DNA from: Caulobacter sp. B11
GTDB lineage: Bacteria > Pseudomonadota > Alphaproteobacteria > Caulobacterales > Caulobacteraceae
Length of the DNA stretch: 11,779 nucleotides
Direction: 5' to 3'
NCBI RefSeq assembly: GCF_002737765.1
Contig: NZ_PEGG01000066.1
Location: 1-11,779, forward strand
The notes beneath the pieces are model-generated. The model searched no databases and had not been told where the DNA came from. It saw only the letters and a list, made by a program, of their open reading frames with translations. Below are positions 1,201 to 6,308 of this stretch, piece after piece. A program made the translations under genes and the position numbers. Within the stretch, counting starts at the first letter, position 1, and each line of letters begins with the position of its first letter.

Positions 1201-1243
1201 GTGGCCTATAATCCTTTTTCCGGTTGAACCTCCGCGGACACCC

Positions 1244-1278
1244 CCGTTCCGAACGATTTCGGAGCGGGACCGGAACGG
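1244..1278 (-). promoter_or_regulatory. Hairpin in the rpsB mRNA leader, possible S2 autoregulatory element
   Basis: An 8-bp perfect inverted repeat (CCGTTCCG at 1244-1251, CGGAACGG at 1271-1278) encloses a 19-nt loop, 44 to 78 nt upstream of the rpsB start. A smaller competing stem (CGTTC-C-GAACG) shares the left arm, so two alternative folds are possible. rpsB is known to be autoregulated through its leader in E. coli. Whether this hairpin does the same is inference. Confidence 0.4.
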
Positions 1279-1334
1279 CGACCTCGGGATGTCTCCCCAA
1301 AGCAACCGAACGTCCACGTGTGGAATGGCGGCGC

Positions 1335-1671: not shown

Positions 1672-5102
<3,431 letters not shown>

Positions 5103-5126: not shown

Positions 5127-5216
5127 TCAGGCCACCAACTGGGCGACCGAGCACATCATCCAGACGAAGCTGACGACAGATACAAGCGCCAAAGACTCAC
5201 GTGCGATCCGGACCAT
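5127..5216 (-). CDS. sidA: SidA-like SOS-induced inner-membrane cell division inhibitor (29 aa)
   Basis: A 29-codon ORF starts at the ATG at 5216-5214, 6 nt after a strong GGAGG, and ends with TGA at 5129-5127. The peptide begins [12 protein letters not shown]. It has a short basic N-terminus (R3, R6) and one hydrophobic segment from about residue 8 to the end, containing W19, two Met and C22, as expected of a single-pass inner-membrane peptide. Known biology: Caulobacter crescentus SidA is a 29-aa inner-membrane protein, induced through LexA, that blocks constriction by binding FtsW (with FtsN). The identical length, the membrane character, the two LexA-like boxes directly upstream and the Caulobacter context make this the best call; I did not compare it with the reference sequence. 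It is transcribed toward dnaE, 24 bp away. A longer in-frame start at 5309 is rejected because it runs through the LexA boxes and the ribosome binding site. Weak TTGCGG (5276-5271) N17 TAGAGA may be its promoter. Confidence 0.85.
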
Positions 5217-5234
5217 GGGAAGCCTCCAAATATC

Positions 5235-5267
5235 GTTTCTATTTTGTTCTCTATTCCACTTTTGTTC
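5235..5267 (-). promoter_or_regulatory. Tandem LexA (SOS) boxes in front of sidA
   Basis: Two 15-bp elements sit 18 bp apart on the plus strand: GTTTCTATTTTGTTC (5235-5249) and ATTCCACTTTTGTTC (5253-5267). Each matches the alphaproteobacterial LexA direct-repeat consensus GTTC-N7-GTTC with a single mismatch in the first half-site and a perfect second half-site. Both carry a T-rich spacer. They lie 19 to 51 nt upstream of the sidA ATG, immediately before its GGAGG, so bound LexA would cover the promoter or start of transcription. The A/T richness of this patch stands out in the GC-rich surroundings. Confidence 0.75.
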
Positions 5268-5348
5268 TCCCCGCAAGATACCCGCGTTCGATCCAGGCAA
5301 TTGACCCATGCCCTTGGCGTCGGCAGGCGGTTCGAGTCAGATGGGCGC

Positions 5349-6308
5349 ATGCGCCTGATCATTGATACCGACACCGCCGGAGACGACGTCTTCTCCCTCA
5401 TGCTCGCCCTGCGTCGCCCCGGCGTCACGGTCGAGGCCATCACCATCGCCCACGGCAATGTCGGCTTCGCGCAGCATGCCGAGAACGCCTTGGTGACCCT
5501 CGCGGCCTGCGGTCGCGCCGATCAGGTTCCGGTCTATCTCGGGGCCCAGCGGCCCTTTTCTCGCGCGCCGCTAGATGCGGCCTATGTGTTCGGCGCGGAT
5601 GGCATGAGCGACTGCGCCTTTCCGGCGACGCCCCAGCGCCCCGCTCCCGGCCATGCGGCCGACGAGATCGTACGACGGATCATGGAGTCTCCGGGCGAGA
5701 TCACCCTGCTGGCCCAGGCGCCGCTGACCAACATCGCCCTGGCCTGGCTGCGCGAGCCGAAGATCGCCCAGGCCTGCAAGCACCTCTGGGTGATGGGCGG
5801 CACGGATAACGGCGTGGGCAATGTCACGCCGGCGGCCGAGTACAATCTCTATGTCGATCCCGAGGCGGCCAGACTGGTCATCAATGCCGGCTTCAACCTG
5901 TCGATCGTCACCTGGACCGAGACCCTGAGGGACGGGTTGCTCGATCTCGACCAGCTCCAGGCGCTCGACGCCCTGGACACCCCGCGCGCCCGGTTCTTCA
6001 CCCAGGTCAATCGCGCCTCCCTGGCCTTCGCCCAGGAGACCGAGCATCTGGACGGCAGCCTGCATCCCGACGCCCTGACCTGCGCCGTGGCCCTGGACGA
6101 GACGCTGATCCTGGAGTCGGAGATGGCCGTCGTCGACGTCGAGACCAAGGGCGAACTGACCCGGGGCTATCTGAGTGTTTCCCACAACATTCTGCCGGAC
6201 ATCGAGCTGGCGGACCCCGCCCTCAAGCGGCGTCCGCCCAATGCCCGGGTGATCAAGGCTGTCGATCGCCAGGGCTTCTTCGCCGCGATGCGCCAGGCCC
6301 TACTCTGA
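5349..6308 (+). CDS. Inosine-uridine preferring nucleoside hydrolase family protein
   Basis: Members of this family hydrolyse the N-glycosidic bond of ribonucleosides to a free base plus ribose, using an active-site Ca2+, in nucleoside salvage. The 319-aa protein shows the N-terminal metal motif DTDTAGDD (residues 6-13; canonical DTDPGxDD), the ribose-binding blocks APLTNIALAW (N128) and AEYNLYVDPEAA (N166), VMGG at 148-151, and the C-terminal calcium-ligand region LHPDALTCA with D241. The canonical C-terminal motif is H-D-P; here a Pro (240) occupies the His place and a His sits one residue earlier, so base specificity or leaving-group activation may differ. The ATG at 5349 is chosen because homology starts at once (MRLIIDTDTAG); no clear Shine-Dalgarno is visible. 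It is the only gene on the plus strand, divergent from sidA and ending 7 bp from the convergent lolD stop. The exact substrate cannot be told. Confidence 0.88.
   Translation: MRLIIDTDTAGDDVFSLMLALRRPGVTVEAITIAHGNVGFAQHAENALVTLAACGRADQVPVYLGAQRPFSRAPLDAAYVFGADGMSDCAFPATPQRPAPGHAADEIVRRIMESPGEITLLAQAPLTNIALAWLREPKIAQACKHLWVMGGTDNGVGNVTPAAEYNLYVDPEAARLVINAGFNLSIVTWTETLRDGLLDLDQLQALDALDTPRARFFTQVNRASLAFAQETEHLDGSLHPDALTCAVALDETLILESEMAVVDVETKGELTRGYLSVSHNILPDIELADPALKRRPPNARVIKAVDRQGFFAAMRQALL

Follow-up and report, generated by a model that had tools for sequence, protein, structure and literature searches.

A 29-codon sidA-family gene behind LexA-type boxes and directly upstream of dnaE in a Caulobacter-group bacterium

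The sidA locus and its neighbours

The window, the whole 11,779-nt stretch of DNA that was analysed, carries on its minus strand an open reading frame of 29 codons plus stop (5127..5216), which begins with an ATG at 5216 and finishes with a TGA whose last base is 5127. A Shine-Dalgarno sequence, GGAGG, lies 6 nt 5' of this ATG (5223..5227, minus strand), and GGAGG also precedes the starts of many relatives. The encoded peptide has a single hydrophobic span, with a top 19-residue Kyte-Doolittle mean of 2.04, a hydropathy value consistent with one membrane helix. Translation and hydropathy thus agree with the initial annotation of this DNA, which had described 29 codons, GGAGG at 6 nt and one hydrophobic span. 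It had also placed the frame directly upstream of dnaE, and the dnaE ATG does lie at 5102, 24 nt after the stop. Assignment of the frame as the sidA coding sequence draws on its translation, the NCBIfam model NF033228, conservation upstream of dnaE, and pN/pS.

The 5' part of the dnaE frame extends over 2193..5102 (minus strand) and matches the Pfam families DNA_pol3_alpha, PHP, finger and HHH_6. The frame breaks near 2241 (site 2193-2260, minus strand), where a 969-residue frame ends at 2193 and a second frame (1672-2223) contains the C-terminal OB-fold; the genome is fragmentary, and the break most likely reflects an error of sequencing or assembly. On the other side of sidA, a nucleoside hydrolase gene (Pfam IU_nuc_hydro, 5349-6308, plus strand) is transcribed divergently from it across about 130 bp. 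Elsewhere in the window, the start of rpsB matches Rfam RF01815, 'rpsB sRNA' (1204-1322, minus strand; 44.4 bits against a gathering score of 40).

Between sidA and the hydrolase gene are two putative LexA-binding sites. The C. crescentus LexA box is described as the direct repeat GTTCN7GTTC (PMC9578287), and seven of its eight bases were accepted as a match in PMC4211646. The proximal box, GTTTCTATTTTGTTC (5235..5249, plus strand), and the distal box, ATTCCACTTTTGTTC (5253..5267, plus strand), which lies 18 nt from it, each have 7/8 bases, so that both carry one mismatch and the window's sidA promoter has no exact LexA-type box. The initial annotation had made no mention of these boxes. A possible -10 element, GAATA (5252..5256, minus strand), overlaps the distal box; its candidate role is suggested by conservation of the T/A bases in relatives. 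A possible -35 element, TTGCGG (5271..5276, minus strand), is suggested by its position and by a first T that is partly conserved. A scan for sigma-70 promoters and terminators around sidA found none.

Identity and conservation of the peptide

The window peptide matches NF033228, the NCBIfam equivalog model named 'cell division inhibitor SidA', at 70.3 bits over positions 1-29 of 29. Because this score stands against a cut-off of 35 and the match covers the full model length, identity as SidA is supported at the level of sequence, the comparison being one with the family model. No Pfam family matched the peptide at E 0.01. When 200 genomes of the order were searched with NF033228, 26 exceeded the cut-off, all of them from the window's family, Caulobacteraceae. 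Among 14 control genomes, four had a match (E. coli, B. subtilis, C. vibrioides and Bacteroides ihuae) and one was over the cut-off, which we infer to be C. vibrioides; the peptide is present 5' of dnaE in loci assigned to that species (L041, L049).

In order to compare the locus with those of relatives, the N-terminus of DnaE was used as a query and the loci of the best 80 of 573 relatives were taken, a choice that makes the sample lean to near relatives. The best match to the sidA peptide lies directly 5' of dnaE in 80 of these best 80 of 573 loci (L055 is cut by a contig end). In 79 of the 80, the sidA stop and the start of dnaE are a median of 29 nt apart (range 12-139 nt), no dnaE start having been found in L099. 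The initial annotation had named the peptide SidA and had suggested looking for the same frame upstream of dnaE in relatives; it had added that a peptide dissimilar to SidA, or one unconserved among relatives, would speak against the name. The full-length NF033228 match bears the name out and supplies the similarity, and the 80 loci supply both the position and the conservation.

The codons of sidA are under protein-level constraint. Pooled over 78 distinct nucleotide sequences, whose pairs are not independent, pN/pS comes to 0.39 in the sidA frame, as against 1.05 and 1.67 in the two shifted ones. M1, S13, F17, W19 and M20 are invariant in 36 aligned peptides, which were picked for diversity and omit forms that lack a start residue at the first aligned position. 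The 65 distinct peptides found in 80 sequences (79 loci and the window) likewise have an invariant F17, while S13, W19 and R6 each differ in one peptide and M20 in two. This data set of SidA sequences from 80 loci therefore offers R6, S13, F17, W19 and M20 as candidate residues of an FtsW-binding face.

These data bear directly on what else the frame might be. A short frame behind GGAGG is by itself no evidence of a gene, because frames of 20-45 codons in that position occur about 1.0 times per first-order Markov copy of the window, as expected by chance for its composition. Adding a hydropathy of at least 1.8 brings the mean to 0.0 in 200 such copies, with a threshold that was set only after the value of 2.04 had been seen. 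The matter is decided by the family match and by conservation among relatives: a chance frame with a chance Shine-Dalgarno match would have to recur in the same place in every one of the best 80 of 573 loci and also show codon constraint, and its probability is negligible. The sidA frame is confirmed as a real gene. Its start could in principle lie further upstream, as the frame stays open beyond 5216 and would give a 60-residue product from an ATG at 5309. Such a product is extremely unlikely, since similarity among relatives begins at the ATG at 5216, the open frames of some relatives have only 29-34 residues there, and the added part would cross both LexA-type boxes.

A further reading keeps the gene short and gives its translation another purpose, namely that of a leader peptide (uORF) that tunes dnaE expression and whose amino acid sequence is unimportant. 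Small leader coding sequences are reported in C. crescentus (PMC4117421), and the 24-nt spacing before dnaE in the window, like the median of 29 nt in relatives, would suit such a role. However, constraint acts on the protein, the core of S13, F17, W19 and M20 is almost invariant and the match to the SidA family is full-length, which makes a pure leader peptide very unlikely. A gene that encodes SidA may have a side effect on dnaE as well.

LexA-type boxes and the adjoining dnaE gene

Within the window alone, the excess of LexA-type boxes is weak evidence, with 13 matches of 7/8 bases where 7.5 are expected and 6 of 200 shuffles reaching 13. The case among relatives is strong as judged by sequence. 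Of the 80 loci, L043 and L055 were dropped for having less than 120 nt upstream. Within 150 nt upstream of sidA, 78/78 of the others carry a box that departs from the consensus at one base or none, and 58/78 carry an exact box. Control pieces from the same loci (n=3668) contained a box with at most one mismatch in 8.0% and an exact box in 0.22%. These pieces were taken anywhere in loci that are related to one another and differ from promoters in base composition because they are mostly coding DNA. Several of the nearest Caulobacter loci (for example L033 and L035-L038) have no exact box, as in the window.

Paired boxes are the usual arrangement: of 79 upstream regions, the window's among them, 69 have a pair spaced by 16-18 nt. 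On the sense strand, the distal box of these 69 regions reads GAAT, not GAAC, in 85%, and the next base is A in 91%. This conservation of GAAT-A, and a T-rich element immediately upstream that is conserved in part, suggest that the distal box overlaps a -10 element. The regulator itself was not found in the window's genome, which is 61.7% complete; of 41 genomes of the genus, 38 have a LexA-family member, and this genome is among the three that do not.

An essential replicase gene, dnaE, sits close behind this SOS-type promoter. In most of the 79 loci with a measured gap, a few tens of bases separate sidA from dnaE, so the LexA-type promoter may read into the latter. We tentatively propose, as a possibility to which we give well under even chances, that sidA and dnaE of Caulobacteraceae form a LexA-controlled operon with dnaE in second place, in which the SOS promoter would also raise the supply of replicative polymerase. 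If true, the conserved place of sidA, besides its sequence, would be part of the checkpoint. No statement of such an operon was found in the literature searched, including the parts of PMC6120978 and PMC9578287 that it covered; the main older papers and the supplements were outside its scope, and the idea may be published there.

Range, proposed function and known systems

Among the genomes of the order and class searched, full-length SidA matches were confined to the window's family. A family-alignment search of 299 genomes of the order placed 61 of 62 matches in that family, the remaining one covering 9 positions, and none of the 20 listed non-matching genomes (of 237) belongs to it. The corresponding 240 genomes of the class gave four matches, of which two were full-length and from the window's family and two were partial (24 and 16 positions), the latter with no adjoining dnaE and no LexA-type box within 150 nt. 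A count of 257/299 genomes with a match at E<=1 is unusable as a prevalence figure because that threshold includes look-alikes. Among phages, tblastn gave no match for the window peptide or for the SidA-like peptide of genome G022 described below, and among plasmids none for the G022 peptide; both negatives are weak because tblastn is insensitive with 29-37 residues. Viral contigs contained no exact match to one degenerate pattern.

Divergent forms extend the family beyond its current model. A Brevundimonas bullata-type peptide (L107) scores 20.5 bits against NF033228, below the cut-off of 35, and in genus g3, which by its peptides looks like Brevundimonas, one of 15 listed genomes is over the cut-off. 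Brevundimonas-type forms still lie 5' of dnaE and behind LexA-type boxes. In genus g15, one locus (L163, genome G014) has a divergent 29-residue peptide before dnaE and an exact LexA-type box; its match is weak (E 0.0016 in the family-alignment search) and falls far short of the NCBIfam range. The age and diversity of SidA may exceed what the present NCBIfam model captures, and divergent members score under the current annotation cut-off. The initial annotation had expected the window's gene to be probably unannotated, a claim that is doubtful because this 29-residue family has its own NCBI model, so that NCBI annotation is unlikely to miss the gene. The description holds better for the Brevundimonas-type forms. 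In C. crescentus the gene is annotated as locus CCNA_02004 (PMC11034885), with a start corrected in a ribosome-profiling study (PMC4117421).

A second SidA in many genomes was considered and rejected. In 16 of 20 inspected genomes with multiple matches, the extra match was weak (E ~0.09-0.4) and lay inside a frame of 429-536 residues, and we read these as hydrophobic look-alikes. Eleven of the 16 share a contig with the sidA match, at a distance of about 2-5 kb, and the other five are elsewhere; from position, our guess for the gene is lolC. Another extra match (G263:C91, L131) belongs to an assembly in which a dnaE-linked copy occurs twice. The sole credible extra copy among the 20 is in G022, where a 37-residue SidA-like peptide is encoded away from dnaE (contig 3, L175:5076-5186, minus strand) by a frame whose ATG overlaps the stop of the preceding frame. 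This copy has no LexA-type box within 150 nt and is surrounded by genes for an integrase, a ParB-like protein, a phage-type regulator and a nuclease. Peptides of its type were found at high score only in G022 among the 299 family genomes (69.1 bits, the next being 29.3). The island is possibly prophage-like, and the copy possibly a prophage-borne division inhibitor.

For the window's gene, we consider it almost certain that it is the sidA of a Caulobacter-group bacterium, predicted to encode a LexA-silenced, SOS-induced single-helix inhibitor of FtsW/FtsI/FtsN, with its predicted induction, target and effect taken over from C. crescentus. SidA of that organism is described as a 29-residue inner-membrane protein that is produced during the SOS response and has both FtsW and FtsN as interaction partners; the model preferred in that study is that SidA promotes inactivity of FtsW/FtsI/FtsN (PMC4211646). 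Its gene is reported to be induced by DNA damage via RecA and LexA, and its deletion to relieve filamentation in lexA mutants (PMC12700426). By analogy, LexA would silence the window's sidA by occupying one of the paired promoter boxes or both, and removal of LexA upon DNA damage would allow the 29-residue peptide to be made. Its basic N-terminus (MVRIAR) is predicted to be cytoplasmic, while one helix with the S-x3-F-x-W-M core would cross the inner membrane. Association of the peptide with FtsW/FtsN would favour the inactive FtsW/FtsI/FtsN complex, as in C. crescentus, and septation would be blocked until repair. The window's genome does encode an FtsW/RodA-family protein, which is either FtsW or RodA.

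The window's sidA is a correct but ordinary finding, a further member of a known family, from a bacterium related to the one in which SidA was discovered, and no new kind of system. It shares with C. crescentus SidA the length of 29 residues, the one hydrophobic span, the full-length family match and the LexA-type boxes. It differs in belonging to another strain or species, in having two boxes of 7/8 bases each, and in being known from sequence alone. DidA of C. crescentus is likewise a small single-helix membrane inhibitor of the same late divisome complex, but is set apart by its description as a 71-residue, SOS-independent protein that binds FtsN (PMC4211646). YneA of Bacillus subtilis, likened here by description, is also a small membrane inhibitor, induced in the SOS response and interacting with FtsW (PMC13396833), but its role is an analogous one in another phylum.
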